64,000 nucleotides of DNA from contig NZ_OZ156465.1 in assembly GCF_964212655.1 (NCBI RefSeq), forward strand, positions 1 through 64,000, written 5' to 3'. Shown piece by piece: positions 19,424-31,183 of the stretch (position 1 is the first letter of the stretch; the number at the start of each line of letters is the position of its first letter). The stretch is from Candidatus Thiodiazotropha sp. LNASS1. Lineage in GTDB: Bacteria; Pseudomonadota; Gammaproteobacteria; Chromatiales; Chromatiaceae. The position numbers were made by a program, and so were the translations under genes. The notes under the pieces are model-generated. The model was not told where the DNA came from, searched no databases, and saw nothing but the letters and a program-made list of their open reading frames with translations.

Positions 19424-19596
19424 AAAGGGATCTGAGCCGAATGGTACTTACTCAAGACGAATTTCAGGATATTCGTCATTCTGGCGCAGGCCGGAATCCA
19501 GGAATACCGTCACCATCAAGCAATCTGGATCCCGGCCTGCGCCGGGATGACGGTGGTTCTTGGCTTAGATAAGCGCCATTCGGATCTGAGCCCTTT
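19424..19596. repeat. MITE-like element, left copy, upstream of katG
   Basis: A ~173-bp element with imperfect terminal inverted repeats: AAAGGG...CCGAATGG at the left and its inverse CCATTCGG...CCCTTT at the right. Inside are two inverted copies of a palindromic core (TTCTGGCGCAGGCCGGAA and CCCGGCCTGCGCCGGG) joined by ACCGTCACCATCAAGCA. The reverse complement of almost the whole element occurs at 22606-22775, beyond katG. No coding capacity. The rest of the 688-base space before katG (19137-19824) shows only an intergenic AACAGGCCCTG motif and katG upstream sequence. Confidence 0.85.
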
Positions 19597-22387: not shown

Positions 22388-23134
22388 TTAGGAATCCTCA
22401 GGATAAATCTGCGGAAACAGAGTCAACCAAGGAATTTTTTAGAACAAGTACTCTAAGATGCTAGCGTCACTCTTTTTCCTGGTGGGGGGCATAAATCGAG
22501 CAAATGGTTACAGGTGGGTAATAATGAAAAGGAAATTTACGATACTATCGCCTTACAAGACAACTCAAGCCAATGATGCCGCGATGGCATCGTGCGAATC
22601 AGGAGAAAGGAGTCTGATCCGAATGGCATTTATTTAAGCAAAGAACCACCGTCATCCCGGCGCAGGCCGGGATCCAGAATGCTTGATGGTGACGGTATTC
22701 CTGGATTCCGGCCTGCGCCGGAATGACGAAAATCCTGAAATTCGTCTTGAGTAAGTGCCATTCGAGTCTGATCCTATAGTGCGTACTCGTGCTATTGATC
22801 CTTCTATGGCGCAAATATCAGGAATTATGTTCTGCAGTATGCCTTACCTATTCAACAAGTCTCTGGTATTCTTTTGAATATATAGGGATTTGTGTCATCT
22901 GGCAGGATGCCCCTTCCAGTTGATCTCACTTCCATTAGTTTCTAAATGATAATTATTTACGATGCGGCATAATACAATATCTGGAGCCGGCGGCATAACA
23001 CGATAAAAAGAGCCGGCAATATAATCACCTGTTGAACTAAACCGCTTCGCGGGGCCTTTCACAACCCACCCCTGAGTCATCATCAACCAGACTCCTAAAG
23101 GACCACTGTTGGTCTACCACACAGGAGTCAACCG
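22388..23134. other. intergenic region between the katG group and the IS91 element
   Basis: Holds the right MITE-like copy (22606-22775), a 37-codon ORF at 22524-22637 that runs into it and looks like a remnant, and AT-rich DNA that should include the left end of the IS91-type element. Two copies of GCGGCATAA(T/C)AC occur at about 22962 and 22989, and two GAGCCGGC strings follow the same spacing; these may be IS-end repeats. No convincing gene. Confidence 0.4.
22606..22775. repeat. MITE-like element, right copy, inverted
   Basis: Reverse complement of the element at 19424-19596, with only scattered mismatches: the shared inner parts include CCACCGTCATCCCGGCGCAG and TCCTGGATTCCGGCCTGCG, and the ends carry TCTGATCCGAATGG and CCATTCGAGTCTGATC. 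The two copies face each other across katG and two small ORFs, about 3 kb apart. Confidence 0.85.
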
Positions 23135-23992
23135 ATGACACAACTTCGCGAACAGATGATAGACGCCATGACCGTGCGTGGATTTTCGCCGCGTACCCAC
23201 CAGAGCTATCTGATGGCGGTGAAGGATCTGGCCCGTTATTATCAGCGTCCCCCGGATCAACTCGGTGAGGATGAGTTGCAAGCTTACTTTCTGTATCTGG
23301 TCAAGGAACGGCACTTAAGCGATGCCAGTTGCCGGCTCTATCGCCATGCCATCCGTTTCTTCTATCTCGAAGTGCTCCAGCAAGCGTCGTTCGATGTGAA
23401 GATCCAGGTGCCCAAACGCAGGCAACGTATCCCGGAGTTACTCCAGCGATCGGAGATCGTACGCATGCTCAATGCCTGTTCCAACCGTAAGCACCATATG
23501 CTATTGCTGACCTGTTATGGCTGCGGCCTGCGGGTCAGTGAACTGGTCAAACTCGAGCTTCGGCATATCGATGGAGAACGCGGGTTGCTGCGCATCGATC
23601 AGGGCAAGGGTGGTAAGGACCGTTATGTGGGCTTGTCGCCGACGTTGCTCAAGCACCTGCGTGACTATTGGCACGTTGAGAAGCCTGTGCGCTGGCTGTT
23701 TCCCAATGAACAGCATCCCGATGAAGCGTTGTCGATCAGCACGCCGCAGAAGGTATTCCGACGGGCTAAGCGCCAGGCGGGCATCACCAAGGTGGGTGGC
23801 ATCCACAGCTTGAGACACGCCTATGCTACCCATCAACTGCAGGCCGGCATGGCAGTGCAGCAGTTGCAGTATCAACTGGGCCACCGCAGCATCCAATCGA
23901 CCTTGCGCTATGTACATTGGGTGTTCAATGATCGTCAGAGCGATCGCCGTGGCGCCGATTTGATTGCAGCGCTGGGGCTGCGCGATGGCTGA
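23135..23992 (+). CDS. tyrosine recombinase associated with IS91-type element
   Basis: A 285-residue site-specific recombinase. The N-terminal SAM-like core-binding domain spans about residues 1-90. The catalytic domain has the first Arg in GCGLRVSELVKL, the Lys in GKGGKDRYVGL, the H-x-x-R box HSLRHAYATH, the second His in LGHRSIQ and the Tyr nucleophile in TLRYVHW. It lacks the extra helical insert that marks integron integrases (IntI) before the H-x-x-R box, so I do not call it IntI despite the adjacent attC sites. Recombinases of this kind are often encoded with IS91 transposases. AGGAGT precedes the ATG. The stop overlaps the transposase start by eight bases. Confidence 0.85.
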   Translation: MTQLREQMIDAMTVRGFSPRTHQSYLMAVKDLARYYQRPPDQLGEDELQAYFLYLVKERHLSDASCRLYRHAIRFFYLEVLQQASFDVKIQVPKRRQRIPELLQRSEIVRMLNACSNRKHHMLLLTCYGCGLRVSELVKLELRHIDGERGLLRIDQGKGGKDRYVGLSPTLLKHLRDYWHVEKPVRWLFPNEQHPDEALSISTPQKVFRRAKRQAGITKVGGIHSLRHAYATHQLQAGMAVQQLQYQLGHRSIQSTLRYVHWVFNDRQSDRRGADLIAALGLRDG

Positions 23993-25115
23993 GGCCATCG
24001 ACCTGCAAACCCTGCTCAAGCGCCACCTGCCCACCTACCGCCAACACCACCGTCTCGATCTGCGCCGCTGTCAGGTATTGTCACATCTGATGCAGTGCCG
24101 GACTGAAGCCATGGGTGGGGTACGCTTAGCCTGTGACCCTTGTCAGGCGCATCAAAACCACTACTATGCCTGTCGCGACCGTCACTGCCCGCACTGTCAG
24201 TGGCAAGCCTCGCGGCAGTGGGCGGACAAGCAGTTGCGTGCCCAATTGCCGGTAACCTATCATCACTTGGTGTTTACCCTGCCCGAGACCCTCAACGGTT
24301 GGATCGAACTGTATCCTCAGCTGATCACGACCTTGCTGTTTCAAACAACCTGGGAGACGCTACAGGCCTTCGCTGAAGACCCCAAGCGCTTGGGCGGGGG
24401 GTTGGGGATGACCGCGGTGTTGCACACCTGGGGCTCGACGTTGACACGCCATGTGCACCTGCACTGCCTGGTGCCGGGCGGCGCGCTGAGCCCGCAAGGC
24501 GAGTGGAAACCGAGCAAGAGCGATTATCTGTTTCCTGTGCGTGCGCTCTCAAGGCGCTTTCGCGGTCTGATGGTCAGCCGATTGCGGGCCTGTGCCCAAG
24601 GCGGGGAGCTCACACGCATCAGTCGTCCGGGCGAGATCGATCTCATCCTGGAGCGGTTGATGGGACAAGACTGGGTGGTCTACAGCAAGCCCTGTCTGCG
24701 CACCGAGCATGTCATCGACTATCTGGCCCGATACACCCACCGCACTGCCGTCAGCAACCGCCGACTCCTGGGCTTGGAGCAGGATCAGGTTGGCTTGCGC
24801 TACAAAGACTACCGGGACCGGCGCTGGAAGGTCATGCAGTTGTCTGTCGATGTGTTGATCCAGCGTTTTCTGCTGCATGTACTACCCAAGGGCCTGATGC
24901 GTATCCGCCATTACGGCTTCCTGGCCAATGCCTGCCGGGCCAGGCAGTTGCCCCGCATCCTTAAGGCGATCGCCGAGGCAGGCCTACAAGCGGTGGTTGA
25001 ATCAGAAACAGAGAAGCAGGTGGCCCGTTGGTGTTTTGCCTGTCCCTGCTGTCAACGACCGATGCGTGTGGTCGCGCAACTAGCGCCGCAATGGCAACGC
25101 ATGGAAGGCGGATGA
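23985..25115 (+). CDS. IS91 family transposase
   Basis: A 376-residue HUH/Y2-type rolling-circle transposase. The N-terminal zinc-finger has cysteines in CDPCQAHQNHYYACRDRHC followed by PHCQ. The HUH motif is HVHLHCLVPGG, and the tyrosine region with YLARYTHRTAVSN follows. A C-terminal cysteine pair (FACPCC) may bind zinc. The ATG at 23985 lies inside the 3' end of the recombinase gene, which implies coupled translation. The gene appears intact, with no frameshift. It is adjacent to the integron-type cassettes; IS91 relatives (ISCR elements) are known to mobilise neighbouring DNA. Confidence 0.9.
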   Translation: MAEAIDLQTLLKRHLPTYRQHHRLDLRRCQVLSHLMQCRTEAMGGVRLACDPCQAHQNHYYACRDRHCPHCQWQASRQWADKQLRAQLPVTYHHLVFTLPETLNGWIELYPQLITTLLFQTTWETLQAFAEDPKRLGGGLGMTAVLHTWGSTLTRHVHLHCLVPGGALSPQGEWKPSKSDYLFPVRALSRRFRGLMVSRLRACAQGGELTRISRPGEIDLILERLMGQDWVVYSKPCLRTEHVIDYLARYTHRTAVSNRRLLGLEQDQVGLRYKDYRDRRWKVMQLSVDVLIQRFLLHVLPKGLMRIRHYGFLANACRARQLPRILKAIAEAGLQAVVESETEKQVARWCFACPCCQRPMRVVAQLAPQWQRMEGG

Positions 25116-25382
25116 CGATGCCCTAGCCTGAGCGTCGGCGTCATCCAGACACTTGATCAGCTCAAGCGCTGAGGTCAAAGTGCGGCCAATCCTCTGAAAA
25201 TAGGTTATTATCGGAGCAAAAGGGAGCCGCAAGCCGTGCTCGAACCACAGGGAGGTCGGTCAAAACCGCTCCCAACAGCCCTAGCGCAACGGAACGCTGT
25301 CACGCCAATCTCCCTCAGGTGCAAGGCGCCAAAAACAAATTCTTATTAATAGAGAGTGGGCAGCCACCCCAAGGTCGGCTTA

Positions 25383-25445
25383 GTCCAACAGGCGTTTATC
25401 CCGCATGCGGAAAACGCACGAGGGATAAACACTACACGGTTAGAA
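25383..25445 (+). other. attC-like recombination site 0 (left edge of cassette array)
   Basis: R'' box GTCCAAC at 25383-25389 fits RYYYAAC. L'' GTTTATCCC (25394-25402) and L' GGGATAAAC (25422-25430) are perfectly paired, with no extrahelical base. R' is GTTAGAA at 25439-25445. The spacers are unequal (4 and 8 bases), so this is less typical than attC 1. Cleavage would be after the first G of R'. It borders the IS91-type element, so the cassette it once closed is gone or is represented by the element. Confidence 0.6.
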
Positions 25446-25465
25446 ATTAAAAGGAGTTCCAAGTA

Positions 25466-26122
25466 ATGGCAGAAAACCTACCTTATAGCACCTCCGTAGG
25501 AGTCTTGGAAAAAGTTTTAGAAAAAATCAAGACTGCTTCCGAGCCTGATAGGGTTACTCAAAATTTCTTACACACGAAACTTGGCTTAAAGGGCGGTGCC
25601 GCTAACGCAGCAATTCCGTTCATGAAGAAAATGGAGTTTGTCGGAAGCGATGGGATTCCAACAGATTTGTATCGTGAATTTAGAAATCCAAAACAATCTA
25701 GGATCGCAATTGGTACTGCCTTTCGAAAATTATACGCTCGCCTTTATGAAATGAATGAGTATATCCATGATGCTTCTGACGATGAAGTGTTGGGCTATAT
25801 TGTTCAGTGCACAGGCGGAGAAAATGATTCAAGAGTTACACAGCAAACTCTTTCTACTTTTAACATGCTTCGGAAACTAGCGGATTTTGATGTTCAAGAA
25901 GAATATGACGCTCCTGAGTACATAGAGGTTACACCTGAAAGCGAGACGGTAACTCCTGCAGTTACACTTCCTCCAACGCAAGGTGGAGAACATCCTTCAA
26001 CTTACAATGGTAAGTCTTTGAACCTTTCATACACAATAAATCTTAATCTTCCTGCTACAAAGGATATAGAGGTATTTAACGCAATATTTAAGAGCCTGAA
26101 AGAACATATCCTGGATAATTAA
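25466..26122 (+). CDS. DUF5343 domain protein, cassette 1 gene A
   Basis: A 218-residue protein whose first half resembles the DUF5343 family: MAENLPYSTSVGVLEKVLEK, then FLHTKLGLKGG and the stretch around AAIPFMKKMEFVGSDGIPTD. The N-terminal part looks like a winged-helix-type domain; the C-terminal half is a Thr/Pro-rich linker and a short conserved tail (LNLSYTINLNLPATKDIEV). The ribosome binding site AAGGAG precedes the ATG. The stop shares one base with the next start (TAATG), so it is co-translated with the HEPN gene. The function is unknown; as partner of a HEPN ribonuclease-like protein, an antitoxin or regulator role is an inference. Base composition is AT-rich compared with neighbouring chromosomal genes. 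Confidence 0.7.
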   Translation: MAENLPYSTSVGVLEKVLEKIKTASEPDRVTQNFLHTKLGLKGGAANAAIPFMKKMEFVGSDGIPTDLYREFRNPKQSRIAIGTAFRKLYARLYEMNEYIHDASDDEVLGYIVQCTGGENDSRVTQQTLSTFNMLRKLADFDVQEEYDAPEYIEVTPESETVTPAVTLPPTQGGEHPSTYNGKSLNLSYTINLNLPATKDIEVFNAIFKSLKEHILDN

Positions 26123-26718
26123 TGATGGAATACGAAGATAAGGTTAAAGCCTTTGGTATGACCAATATGCTAATCGAAACCGAACTCGATAGCATCGAAA
26201 ACCGATACGAGATAGAACTTCGAAATGATCAACCTCTAAGTGAGCAGTCCAAAGAAATAGAGGAAATATACTTTCCGCAGTTTGAACAGGGACTACGAAA
26301 AGAAGCAGCGTACATGTCTAGGAACTACGAGCTATTTTATTGCCTAGAGAAAACAATACGTCAGCAAATTTCAGAGTTGCTAGAATCAACAGAAGGTGAT
26401 GCCTGGTGGAATGATACGGTCATACCTCAGCATATAGTTGGTGATGTGAAAAAGAGGATGCAGAGAGAACGCGAAGCAGGAATAACACCGCGTTCTCCTG
26501 ACCCATTGGATTACACGAACTTCGGCGAACTAGGAGAAATTATCAAGAAGAATTGGCCTGTATTCGCTAGTATTTTTAACAATATCAAGGCAGTAGATAA
26601 AGTTATGTTTAACTTAAACACCTTGAGAAATCCTATTGCTCACTGCAGCTTACTCGCAGAGGACGAAAAGTTAAGGCTAGAATTAAGCCTAAGAGATTGG
26701 TTTAGGCTCACAGAATGA
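26122..26718 (+). CDS. Swt1-type HEPN domain protein, cassette 1 gene B
   Basis: A 198-residue protein whose C-terminal region resembles the Swt1-like HEPN domain (YELFYCLEKTIRQQISELLE, then LDYTNFGELGEIIKKNW, then LRNPIAHCSLLAEDE). The catalytic R-x4-H motif of HEPN ribonucleases is intact as Arg169-NPIA-His174, with the Asn after the Arg that is usual for active members. HEPN proteins are toxins or effectors in toxin-antitoxin, abortive infection and CRISPR systems, acting by RNA cleavage. The gene starts on the last base of the DUF5343 gene, and its stop lies two bases before the R'' box of attC 1. Biochemical activity is inferred; the fold assignment comes from motif match only. Confidence 0.75.
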   Translation: MMEYEDKVKAFGMTNMLIETELDSIENRYEIELRNDQPLSEQSKEIEEIYFPQFEQGLRKEAAYMSRNYELFYCLEKTIRQQISELLESTEGDAWWNDTVIPQHIVGDVKKRMQREREAGITPRSPDPLDYTNFGELGEIIKKNWPVFASIFNNIKAVDKVMFNLNTLRNPIAHCSLLAEDEKLRLELSLRDWFRLTE

Positions 26719-26719
26719 T

Positions 26720-26795
26720 TTCTAACAAGAAAGTCATGCCGTTCACTGCGTTCACTCGGACGCGCTATCGCGCGCCGCATACTTAAGCGTTAGAA
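26720..26795 (+). other. attC site 1, well formed
   Basis: R'' TTCTAAC (26720-26726) is the exact complement of R' GTTAGAA (26789-26795). L'' is AAGTCATGC (26731-26739) and L' is GCATACTT (26777-26784): they pair except for one extra base, C at 26735, the extrahelical base expected in L''. Both spacers are four bases (AAGA and AAGC). This 76-bp site meets the known architecture of integron attC sites. R'' also matches the start of its own cassette (TTAGAA at 25440), as integron cassette circularisation predicts. Confidence 0.9.
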
Positions 26796-26809
26796 GCACA
26801 GGATAAATA

Positions 26810-27040
26810 TTGAGATTTAAACATCAACATAAGAAAACTGAGCTGTTGGGATCGCTTAAAGGCTTTGATAAATTTCTAAGCCAGTGTGTTGTATGTCAGG
26901 AAATTGGTTATGATCCAGATAAGCTGAAGTTAAAACAAAACAGGCATTTTCAAAAGCGAGCTAGAGAAAATTTTAATCCAGTAAAGATTAACGATATAGG
27001 CGTCTGTGAGCAATGCCAGAAACATCTATCAAAAGACTGA
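26810..27040 (+). CDS. four-cysteine small protein, cassette 2 gene A
   Basis: A 76-residue hypothetical protein beginning at a TTG (MRFKHQHKKTELLGSLKGFD), with AGGATAA before it. It has two CxxC pairs: CVVC near residue 30 and CEQC near residue 68, which could bind one zinc ion. The middle is Lys/Arg-rich (KLKLKQNRHFQKRARENF). I do not recognise the family; proteins of this kind are frequent as cassette-encoded unknowns. It lies 15 bases after attC 1, in the usual position and orientation for a cassette gene. The TTG start is uncertain. Confidence 0.6.
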   Translation: MRFKHQHKKTELLGSLKGFDKFLSQCVVCQEIGYDPDKLKLKQNRHFQKRARENFNPVKINDIGVCEQCQKHLSKD

Positions 27041-27079
27041 GCGAAGATATGAGTAGACCGACTAGCATTGCTTCTAAAA

Positions 27080-27532
27080 ATGTATAACGAGACAAGAGGT
27101 CTCGTTAATAAAGCTATTATGTTCGAAAAAATAATGGAGCCACCAAGATATTTACTTAACAGATTCGGTTATGTTATTTCCCGAATCGTATATTTAATAG
27201 CATGCGGCCAAGCGCGCATTGGCATTTCGAAAGAGTTTTGTTACACGCTAAGTGCCAGCAAAGCATTCGGAGAGGGTGGTCGTGCTTATGAAAGAGGCGA
27301 TTATGAAGTTTGTTACGAGATACTTTCTCCTTATCTTGCAGCTGAGCAAGATGGAGTGCATGGAGGTATAAAATACCATCTCGGTTTATTGTTTTTTTAT
27401 GGTAGAGGTGTAACCCTCAACAGAGGGCAAGCAAACAAGCTATTTGAAGAGGCCGCTTTACTTGGCTGGGAACAAGCGCAACAGTATTTGTCACAGTTTA
27501 AAGGTCGCAGCAGTGAGGAACATTACAATTAG
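27080..27532 (+). CDS. Sel1-repeat protein, cassette 2 gene B
   Basis: A 150-residue protein with a Sel1-like repeat near the C-terminus: KYHLGLLFFYGRGVTLNRGQ, then NKLFEEAALLGWEQAQQYLS. The preceding segment (FGEGGRAYERGDYEVCYEIL) looks like a degenerate repeat. Sel1 repeats are alpha-helical pairs that mediate protein-protein contacts. A hydrophobic stretch around residues 35-47 (YVISRIVYLIACG) may be a membrane segment or buried helix. The ATG at 27080 is the first ATG in frame; a TTG at 27068 is possible. It shares cassette 2 with the four-cysteine protein, and its stop lies at the start of attC 2. Confidence 0.6.
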   Translation: MYNETRGLVNKAIMFEKIMEPPRYLLNRFGYVISRIVYLIACGQARIGISKEFCYTLSASKAFGEGGRAYERGDYEVCYEILSPYLAAEQDGVHGGIKYHLGLLFFYGRGVTLNRGQANKLFEEAALLGWEQAQQYLSQFKGRSSEEHYN

Positions 27533-27607
27533 CTCTAGTCGTTCGTCACTTCGTTCCTCACTGGGACGCCCGGCATTGCCGGCCGCCCCTAAGCATCAGC
27601 GTTATGA
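27533..27607 (+). other. attC-like site 2, degenerate R''
   Basis: R' is GTTATGA at 27601-27607. The central hairpin CCCGGCATTGCCGGCC and the strings CGTTCGTCACTTCG and GGGACGCC are typical of attC sites in environmental gammaproteobacterial integrons. The expected R'' (TTCTAAC, complement of the cassette 2 start) is seen only as CTCTAGT at 27533-27539, so this site is the weakest of the three downstream ones. L boxes pair poorly. It is identified mainly by position, the R' box and the central region. Confidence 0.6.
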
Positions 27608-27625
27608 GTAAAAAGGAATTAGATA

Positions 27626-28414
27626 GTGTGGAATCCGTTTCGTAGCACACAGTTACTTACAGAAGAGGATTCATATTTCCAATTTGAATGCTTCAAATGG
27701 TTATTAACTCATTTCGGGGGTGATGACTTCTATAAAGGAATAGAGCTTGTGCTTCCAACTGAAGAGTACTTTCCTGCGGTGGTGGACTCGAGTGAGTCTG
27801 CTGCGCAGACAACATTCAATCAAGTGAAAATGTTTGCTGGGTTGGAAAAGTGGCCGGTAAAACTTGAGGAGCAAGAAGAAGACCCTAATATTCATATTGG
27901 GGATACACTGATCGTACAAAATGTAGATCCTAATCCGTTAGGAACATTCTCTTCTAATGTTAACGATGAAATAAAGATTACGTACAATCCAAAGATTGTA
28001 TCTGACCCTCAACAAATGGTAGCTACATTTGCTCATGAGTTATCACACTATCTAACTGGCACAGCACATGAGCCTCCTCCTGGTGGATGGGAGAATTGGG
28101 AGTTTGCCACTGATATTGGAGCAACATTTCTAGGATTTGGCATTTTCATGGCAAATTCTGCTTTTAGCTTTCGCCAGTACTCAAGCGGTGGCATATCTGG
28201 TTGGCAAACTTCTGGCTCCGGATATTTATCGGAAGCAGAACATAGTTATTCTTTAGCTGTGTTTTTACGGCTTAAGGAAATACCACCAGAAAAAGCTATA
28301 CCGTATTGTGATAGGAGTATTAACGCTTATGTGAAACAAGCTTTAAAAGAGATAGATAGTGGCAATATTATCCAAGAGTTACGAGGTATAAAGTATGTGC
28401 CACAAAACTCATAA
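27626..28414 (+). CDS. putative zinc metallopeptidase-like protein, cassette 3 gene
   Basis: A 262-residue protein carrying the zinc-metallopeptidase motif HELSH (His137, Glu138, His141) in TFAHELSHYL. A possible third ligand lies about 20 residues on, in ENWEFATDIGATFLGF (Glu159 or Asp163). Upstream are GDTLIVQNVDPNPLGTF and INDEIK-like beta segments that would form a small domain. No signal peptide is visible, so it is likely cytoplasmic. The GTG at 27626 follows AAGGAATT. The stop TAA lies inside the R'' box of attC 3, as in many cassettes. Function is unknown; a protease acting on a host or phage protein is possible but not shown. Confidence 0.65.
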   Translation: MWNPFRSTQLLTEEDSYFQFECFKWLLTHFGGDDFYKGIELVLPTEEYFPAVVDSSESAAQTTFNQVKMFAGLEKWPVKLEEQEEDPNIHIGDTLIVQNVDPNPLGTFSSNVNDEIKITYNPKIVSDPQQMVATFAHELSHYLTGTAHEPPPGGWENWEFATDIGATFLGFGIFMANSAFSFRQYSSGGISGWQTSGSGYLSEAEHSYSLAVFLRLKEIPPEKAIPYCDRSINAYVKQALKEIDSGNIIQELRGIKYVPQNS

Positions 28415-28485
28415 CAAAACGCAGCAGCACGTCGCTATCGCGGCTGGACGCAGCAGAGCTGCGCCGCTGTGCTAAAGCGTTACAA
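28409..28485 (+). other. attC site 3 (right edge of cassette array)
   Basis: R'' TCATAAC (28409-28415) exactly complements GTTATGA at the start of its own cassette (27601-27607). L'' (AGCAGCAGC) and L' (GCTGTGCT) pair except for one extra base. R' is GTTACAA at 28479-28485, followed by chromosomal sequence before the diguanylate cyclase. The 77-bp site has an inner hairpin (CAGCAGAGCTGCG). It is the last recognisable site, so the array ends here. Confidence 0.75.
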
Positions 28486-30491: not shown

Positions 30492-30843
30492 CCGGCATGT
30501 CACACTACAAATCCGCAAAACGGTCCTATGATAGCATTATGTTTCTCTCTTCCATGGAGTGATTCCAGCAAGTTAAGAGAAGAAAGCGATTGATAAAAAA
30601 ATTGTCTCGTTAGAGTAATTTGTAGGTTGCTCTAATTAATAAGTGTCACTAATCTATTGAAAGACGAAAACAATATTGAAATCATCAGTAATATCTTTAT
30701 TTAAGGGTCAGTTCTGACTACCTGACGCTGCCTAACTAACACACAAGCTAAGATCCTACGATCACGTCATTCCGGCGTATGCCGGAATCCAGATGCTCCA
30801 CACGATTGTCGACCGTCTCTATTTCAGCAAAGAATATTGCTCG
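30492..30843. other. intergenic region with one inverted-repeat half
   Basis: Holds a 28-bp repeat at 30765-30792, listed separately, and the string GGTCAGTTCTGAC at about 30707. Nothing else supported. Confidence 0.35.
30765..30792. repeat. palindromic 28-bp repeat, left of the GIY-YIG gene
   Basis: CGTCATTCCGGCGTATGCCG continuing to GAATCCAG. Its inverse lies at 31156-31183, on the other side of the GIY-YIG gene. The same core occurs in the MITE-like copies around katG. The core itself is palindromic (TTCCGGCGTATGCCGGAA). Confidence 0.8.
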
Positions 30844-31155: not shown

Positions 31156-31183
31156 CTGGATTCCGGCCTACGCCGGAATGACG
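31156..31183. repeat. palindromic 28-bp repeat, right of the GIY-YIG gene
   Basis: CTGGATTCCGGCCTACGCCG continuing to GAATGACG, the inverse of the repeat at 30765-30792. Together they frame the GIY-YIG gene. Confidence 0.8.

Follow-up and report, generated by a model that had tools for sequence, protein, structure and literature searches.

IS91-family elements, including those of the insertion sequence (IS) common region type (ISCR), possess a zinc-binding Y2 transposase, a hairpin near the right end and a short target word adjoining the element. Known members use short targets such as GTTC or CTTG, a rule which may not cover the whole family. The nearest precedent for such an element in an integron is ISShvi3, an IS91-like element which makes a new cassette structure in a Shewanella integron (PMC9229058). 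The accessible part of that account deals with one element and gives no end anatomy, target consensus, tyrosine (Tyr) recombinase or spread; ISShvi3 is set apart from the element described below by its description, not by its sequence. Insertion sequences of the IS1111-attC group (ISKpn4 and ISPst6) target the attC sites of cassettes (PMC11187229); they belong to another transposase family and are RNA-guided, and in the accessible part of that source the IS end is not described as attC. Searches of the open-licence literature, judged by titles and the opening lines of abstracts, yielded no account in which an IS91 end is an attC; among the papers looked into, only PMC9229058 comes near, and PMC9345347 had no bearing on the question. 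For Thiodiazotropha and integrons, one paper was retrieved, on zebra mussel microbiota. Here, an integron-like locus with an IS91-type element was analyzed at positions 22964-28485 of a 64,000-base stretch of DNA (the window), comprising bases 1-64000 of the closed genome (4,746,093 bp) of Candidatus Thiodiazotropha sp. LNASS1.

Clusters of attC sites lacking an integron integrase (CALIN) resemble this locus in having several attC sites of the same orientation with no integrase gene (intI) nearby. The locus differs from a CALIN by its attI-like left boundary and by the IS91-type element as its first unit. A first-pass annotation, made from the sequence alone, had described a CALIN-type cluster, which is correct by definition for the window (three consecutive attC sites were recognized, a CALIN having at least two) and is modified by the attI-like boundary and by three intI genes elsewhere in the genome. 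Because of that boundary, the locus resembles an integron lacking only its integrase. There is good support for regarding it as an integrase-less integron made up, besides that site, of one IS91-type element and four cassettes, and it is probable that the integrase is the only part missing from the attI-like site, the element and the cassettes at 22964-28485, the function being presumably supplied in trans. The following features were distinguished:

22964-23031, + strand: attI-like site, repeated in the genome and present in an orthologous locus of a sister species, with the G of the crossover point as its final base
23032-25439, + strand: IS91-type element in cassette layout, starting with TTGAACTAA and ending with ..CACTACACGG; relatives elsewhere have the same ends
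23135-23992, + strand: Tyr recombinase of the IS91-type element, 285 amino acids (PF00589, 115.2 bits)
23964-25115, + strand: IS91-family Y2 transposase, 383 amino acids from TTG, with an ATG at 23985 (NF033538, PF04986, PF14319)
25380-25439, + strand: right end of the element (site 1), with R'' TTAGTCCAAC and hairpin GTTTATCCC..GGGATAAAC, followed by the G|TT of the next cassette
25440-26789, + strand: cassette 1, 1350 bp, coding for a DUF5343 protein (25466-26122) and a HEPN_Swt1 protein (26122-26718), both by Pfam
26720-26795, + strand: attC of cassette 1 (site 2)
26790-27116, + strand: predicted cassette 2a, 327 bp, with a 76-amino-acid open reading frame (ORF) at 26810-27040 containing CxxC pairs
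27070-27121, + strand: short site of cassette 2a, with hairpin AACGAGAC/GTCTCGTT
27117-27601, + strand: predicted cassette 2b, 485 bp, with a Sel1-like ORF, probably from the ATG at 27120 to 27532
27518-27607, + strand: attC of cassette 2b (site 3), with a degenerate R''
27602-28479, + strand: cassette 3, 878 bp, with a 262-amino-acid ORF at 27626-28414, weakly SprT-like
28409-28485, + strand: attC of cassette 3 (site 4), the last of the array

As Rfam gave no matches in the window at gathering thresholds, a covariance model for attC, named R1, was built from 15 attC sites, all located in other arrays of the genome and none within the window. A heuristic scan for complementary R boxes and folding energy alone was too noisy for calling attC; only those of its sites lying in arrays with intI or an intI remnant were used for training, the other training sites being read separately. 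Over the whole genome, with 150 of 940 first-look candidates scored, R1 detected at least 24 places (E <= 1), of which 15 were its own training sites and which included, out of the three sites of the window, site 3 alone. In the 64-kb window itself, three matches falling within 1.8 kb were obtained: 26720-26795 (E 5.4e-5), 27520-27607 (E 2.1e-4) and 28409-28485 (E 1.3e-4), with nothing else up to E = 10. Sites 2, 3 and 4 of the first-pass annotation were thereby confirmed as attC by an independent model, at E 5e-5 to 2e-4.

The start of each cassette was complementary to its own R'' box in 8/8, 8/8, 7/8 and 8/8 bases for cassettes 1, 2a, 2b and 3, respectively; a match of at least 7/8 was reached in 126 of 20,000 pairs of positions drawn at random from the region. 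The exact pairing proposed for cassettes 1 and 3 held in full, TTAGAAAT being complementary to ATTTCTAA of site 2 and TTATGAGT to ACTCATAA of site 4. The partial match which had been noted for cassette 2 arose because the short site at 27070-27121 divides this cassette. Its start, TTAGAAGC, has an exact complement, GCTTCTAA, at 27070, well ahead of site 3, and the start of the remaining part, TTATGTTC, matched GAACATTA of site 3 in 7/8 bases, with the R'' of site 3 placed at 27518-27526 and not at 27533. The short site has the layout GCTTCTAA..AACGAGAC-AAGAG-GTCTCGTT..CTATTATG, a core ATT instead of GTT and a bottom-strand fold with z = -4.6. Two of the three cassettes originally counted were thus retained, and the middle one appears to consist of two, 2a and 2b, making an array of four. 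The z scores of bottom-strand folding were -0.8, -1.6 and -2.4 for sites 2, 3 and 4, and folding energy alone did not separate attC at this locus. The deviating base composition was also borne out, the G+C content being 0.39-0.43 in the cassettes and mostly 0.48-0.64 in the flanking genes, with some stretches at 0.44-0.45.

The site at 22964-23031 is a putative attI, as judged from its position and repeats. It recurs at 4264229-4264288 (95%) and 427088-427154 (87%) of the genome, the repeated stretch being about 60-70 bases long. A broken intI devoid of its middle part is situated some 500 bases away from the 95% copy, and no intI adjoins the window copy. Three intact intI genes scored above the TIGR02249 cut-off in the whole genome (2694654+, 2424023+ and 4356118-), and a fourth one was present as broken pieces at 4263392-4263731. 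The window contained no match above this cut-off, in agreement with the first reading; at E <= 1, the search for intI-like sequences was negative for 18.0-23.2 kb and, for 28.4-34.0 kb, gave nothing beyond a 17-residue chance match (E 0.33). The integrases encoded by the three intact genes would act on the array in trans. The locus also points to the possibility that attI-like sites with no integrase beside them remain in use, being served in trans. The Tyr recombinase of the IS91-type element was considered as the missing IntI and rejected: it reached 151.8 bits with TIGR02249 against a cut-off of 265 and, in the alignment, lacked the insert of about 40 residues common to the three IntI of the genome, and for these reasons it was not classified as an IntI. 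As a separate observation, an attI-like site with an attC match downstream (E 1.6e-4) and no intI found nearby lies at 423569-427154, and the orthologue of this 427-kb site in a sister species (genome G007) carries the IS91-type element.

The transposase of the element scored 401.2 bits with NF033538 (cut-off 125) and 199.1 bits with PF04986, which places it in the IS91 family, and was 98% identical to a transposase of Candidatus Thiodiazotropha endolucinida; a gammaproteobacterium of the kind that lives with lucinid clams is likely. The 2.4-kb element occurs in four genomic copies of 98.5-100% identity: in the window (23032-25439), at 4357 kb, at 4266 kb and, on the opposite strand, at 3149 kb. 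One of the copies outside the window is found at a distance of about 195 bases from the intI gene at 4356118-. All four copies agree through ..CACGGTTA or ..CACTACACGGTTA and then diverge, each preceding a different sequence which begins at the crossover base. Since they all share site 1 and part directly after it, site 1 forms the right terminus of the element. It had been taken for an ordinary cassette attC with perfectly complementary R boxes; it represents instead the last 60 or so bases of a four-copy element, is missed by R1, and its boxes GTCCAAC and GTTAGAA pair in 5/7 positions. Nor does the element merely adjoin the array, as had been proposed, for it is positioned between the attI-like site and cassette 1; of the whole locus, it is the more unusual component.

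The anatomy of the element resembles that of a cassette. It starts with G|TTGAAC, at the base pair where crossover takes place in cassettes, and the boxes of its right end follow the attC order, R''-spacer-L''-hairpin-L'-spacer-G|TT. The right-end GTCCAAC, which pairs with the target GTTAGAA as given above, pairs in 6/7 positions with the left end of the element, GTTGAAC (9/10 for TTAGTCCAAC/GTTGAACTAA), so that the left end appears to stand to the right-end box in the same relation as a cassette start to its own R''. The bottom-strand fold of the right end had z = -5.0, with 0 of 200 shuffles as good. The cassette start following each own copy obeyed the start/R'' rule exactly in three of four cases and in 7/8 bases in the fourth. 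No sigma-70-like match to an outward promoter was found in the right end. The element is termed cassette-like here and was not classified as a cassette because its 3' site is not recognized as attC by R1.

The right end of the element might combine two functions, those of the rolling-circle origin (oriIS) and of an attC site; the element could then be inserted at attI and attC like a cassette, besides transposing by itself. We place this dual role somewhat below an even chance. The extension of the proposal, i.e. a gammaproteobacterial IS91 lineage whose end acts as both oriIS and attC, which moves by rolling-circle transposition and as a cassette and which yields transposase-less copies of about 400 bp, is tentative, the balance of probability being tilted against it.

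The distribution of the element was surveyed across the GTDB family (146 genomes), in which 40 genomes had a transposase match at E <= 1e-30; a search of the genome contig collection with the transposase gave two loci. The right-end pattern was present in 16 of the 146 genomes, and the reversed control pattern was absent among the matches listed. In genome G107, with 13 places listed, all 12 copies compared had the left end GTTGAACTAATCC.. and 11 had the right end TTAGTCCAAC-AAACGTTTATCC-hairpin-GGATAAACGCTTATTC. In the remaining copy, L074, the element breaks off right at TTAGTCCAAC and the terminal hairpin is missing. Among the places with the right-end pattern, elements about 400 bp long, similar to miniature inverted-repeat transposable elements and bearing the left end together with the motif of the right end, were found at five loci (L120, L127, L128, L134 and L135), with a shortened hairpin in L128; no transposase or recombinase match was detected within the 3-kb locus of each. 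Over 14 relatives, the 18-pair helix of the right end was formed in 94.4% of cells, seven pairs were changed on both sides, and four of five covariation measures exceeded all 500 shuffles.

Two sets of right flanks were compiled. The first comprised 37 flanks after a strict end motif, three of them shifted by one base by hand; the second, obtained with a looser motif, comprised 58 distinct flanks after ends without ATAAA (L108 and, twice, L128) had been dropped. The looser motif also revealed ends in relatives scored as endless under the strict one, and the choice between the two counts does not alter the reading. Among the 58 flanks, 52 began with GTT, 45 with GTTA and 22 with the full GTTRRRY. 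The base after GTTA was G in 34 of 45 flanks, compared with 18.5% for the 1166 GTTA words contained in a smaller set of these loci compiled earlier.

Some copies of the element sit at attI or attC. Left ends coincided with R1 attC matches in L141 (twice, E 4.1e-6 and 0.0039), L090 (E 3.4e-7) and L092 (E 0.2), and intI or its remnant was present in the left flank of 6 of 36 distinct copies (flanks of 141 to 2500 bases); the broken intI near the 4266-kb copy lies just past the left flank examined. A class-wide search detected the transposase at E <= 1e-80 in 8 of 369 genomes, two of the eight belonging to the genus of the window. At 11 loci of the other six genomes, the right motif TTAGTCCAACAGACATTTAT was found in eight, the left end GTTGAACTAAACCGC in seven and both in six; among the loci from other families, L150 had neither end motif and L155 a different end. 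In G386, a genome of another GTDB family with a transposase 47% identical, three copies abut GTTAGCC, GTTAGGC and GTTAGGC, and one of them is flanked on the left side by a AACGAGAC/GTCTCGTT hairpin resembling those of the window genome. Directly after the element, L094 has ATTATGTGAACATTCACATAAC and L157 has GTTATGCGGAGCATAAC, which may represent cassettes of 15-20 bases that are empty or nearly so.

A second transposase gene, 29% identical to that of the window, was identified inside the 2.69-Mb array at 2691360-2693190 (L021). The unit carrying it directly follows an attC whose R' is the start of the unit, G|TTGCAC, and is in this respect cassette-like; it contains TGTGCAAC near the end of the ORF. 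Relatives of this second lineage in G007, G101, G024 and G039 adjoin intI, each beginning at an apparent attI. An exact 7-base R'' match to the start of the unit itself was present in G101 and G024; the script found none in G007, and the contig of G039 ends too soon. For the end of the second lineage, R1 gave a match in L137 (E 1.9e-4) and a weak one in L138 (E 0.11). The second lineage has a clearer attC end than the window-type element.

The strongest alternative, to which we assign nearly an even chance, is plain IS91 transposition, in which insertion 5' of GTTA-like words would be carried out by the Y2 transposase, perhaps with help from the Tyr recombinase. The cores of attI and attC are such words, hence the frequent hits in integrons; the attC appearance of the end would be convergence between single-strand hairpins, with no role for IntI. 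Known IS91 elements do use short targets such as GTTC. The results obtained with the attC model, the dispersal of copies and the presence of copies in genomes with no intI detected speak for this alternative; these and the other observations given next speak against a use of the end as attC. R1 failed to detect site 1 up to E = 10 in the 64-kb window and, when applied to 37 loci, gave no end of the window-type lineage among the hits matched to ends. Some relatives have an 18-bp-long inverted repeat, more like a transposon repeat than an R box. The fifth covariation measure, counting further pair types, was not above chance (496 of 500 shuffles as high). The exact 8-base downstream rule was followed by 7 of 37 flanks (56 of 1332 in the swapped-key control) and, in the wider set with slightly different scoring, by 8 of 54 (98 of 3078 in the control). 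Among the genomes with a transposase of at least 50% identity, 8 of 26 had no intI at E <= 1e-50, and intI was only mildly commoner with a close transposase (18 of 26 genomes versus 67 of 120). A strict dependence of the element on intI was examined with the same counts and is not supported. In G107, L083 was the only copy with this end to show R1 matches at E < 0.1 (10 of 11 copies scanned, in the flank examined), for which reason most copies of this genome look dispersed; L078 had one R1 match at E 0.53.

Cassettes integrated at scattered chromosomal sites are known as attG insertions, and the dispersed copies of G107 resemble them. The G107 unit brings its own transposase, which possibly explains its scatter without IntI. 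Plain transposition accounts less readily for a flank preference extending past GTTA to GTTAGRY, for the coincidence of the junction with the crossover base and for the recognition of the second lineage's end by R1. The window element also differs from the IS91 family as known in its GTTAGRY flank in place of GTTC or CTTG, with GTTA in 45 of the 58 flanks, and in its attC-like box order, its companion Tyr recombinase and its presence at attI and attC. The layout of the end, the position of the crossover and the surroundings argue for its putative use as attC.

To our knowledge, the origin of attC sites is an unsettled question. A transposon end combining a single-strand fold, the box order of attC and the crossover-base position allows a link between HUH transposons and integrons to be put to the test. 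If the end has the dual role, it would be a concrete candidate for the kinship of transposon ends and attC, or for the birth of a new attC. If integrases accept such ends, IS91-type elements would gain a second route of spread, and tools which count attC may mistake transposon ends for cassettes, as happened with site 1.

The locus as a whole was compared with those of five congeners (G007, G096, G063, G136 and G118). In G007, a sister species of the same genus, the orthologous locus is split over two contigs and the interval between them is not covered. On one contig, the attI-like site is followed by a different start, CTG|TTGATGCACG.., and on the other a different attC (R1 E 0.019) is joined to the right flank of the window. 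The orthologous place in G096 is filled by another ORF, with no R1 match at E <= 1. G063 and G136 gave a match of good identity for the left flank only, and in G118 neither flank was found beyond weak matches. The first-pass annotation had named the same cassettes, fixed in the same order in other genomes, as an observation that would speak against an array; among these congeners, G007 has other cassettes and G096 has no array. These data also bear on the possibility that the locus is a dead relic which lost its integrase, is no longer acted upon and is decaying. The core ATT of the short site, the degenerate R'' of site 3 and the lack of intI nearby would suit such a relic. The different cassettes within the same boundaries in G007, the three intact intI in the cell and the R'' match of 8/8 in three of four cassettes make it unlikely.

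Much less probable still is the original picture of four ordinary attC sites delimiting three cassettes, with a separate IS91 element adjacent by chance. It agrees with the identity of sites 2-4 and with the lack of intI in the window, and the three copies outside the window (3149, 4266 and 4357 kb) contradict it, as site 1 belongs to the element in all four copies; moreover, cassette 2 splits in two and the left boundary is attI-like. ISCR relatives mobilize adjacent genes and the element precedes cassettes at all four of its own loci, yet the arrival of the cassettes as cargo of one-ended IS91 transposition, without integrase recombination, is the least credible explanation, since a different sequence, starting at the crossover base, follows each own copy.

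The hairpin AACGAGAC/GTCTCGTT of the short site (about 50 bp) occurs eight times in the genome, every time at an integron locus: in the window at 27070-27121 and at genome positions 4266789, 4271416, 4271893, 4357224, 4360150, 4362078 and 4363606. The core is ATT in the window copy and GTT in the other seven, and the short sites that were read have a cassette-specific R'' with A, not C, as the last base. In the 4357-kb integron, one copy is situated in the stretch that separates intI from the first unit. By matching this stretch, the short sites recall DeltaattI-type cassettes, in which, according to the accessible part of the source, the 3' site is a piece of attI (PMC12901181). Unlike these, as far as they are described there, the short sites are present in eight copies in one genome and have a cassette-specific R'' where read; most reported DeltaattI-type stretches are 14-18 nt, in that part of the account, and the short sites are longer (PMC12901181). 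A hairpin similar to that of the short site was also noticed in L158, from another GTDB family.

The four cassettes carry five ORFs in a single orientation throughout. The adjacent, overlapping genes of cassette 1 matched the PADLOC candidates PDC-M34A (2.9e-48) and PDC-M34B (4.2e-36), and the pair is a candidate phage-defence system, PDC-M34, candidate being also the status given to it by PADLOC. A Pfam search with the 76-amino-acid ORF of cassette 2a gave no family above the cut-off. The ORF of cassette 2b reached 22.6 bits with the Sel1 repeat, under the cut-off of 30.7, and that of cassette 3 matched PF10263 at E 0.14, also under the cut-off.

Two further observations concern the surroundings of such loci. 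A common stretch beside cassette sites is shared by L105 (about 1-600) and the end of contig C15 of G007 (L145), and by eye it resembles a group II intron reverse transcriptase. A dispersed palindromic repeat of the GTCATCCCGGCGCAGGCCGGGATCCAG type is present in the window at 22606-22774, 19428-19596, 30765-30792 and 31156-31183, and also elsewhere in the genome.

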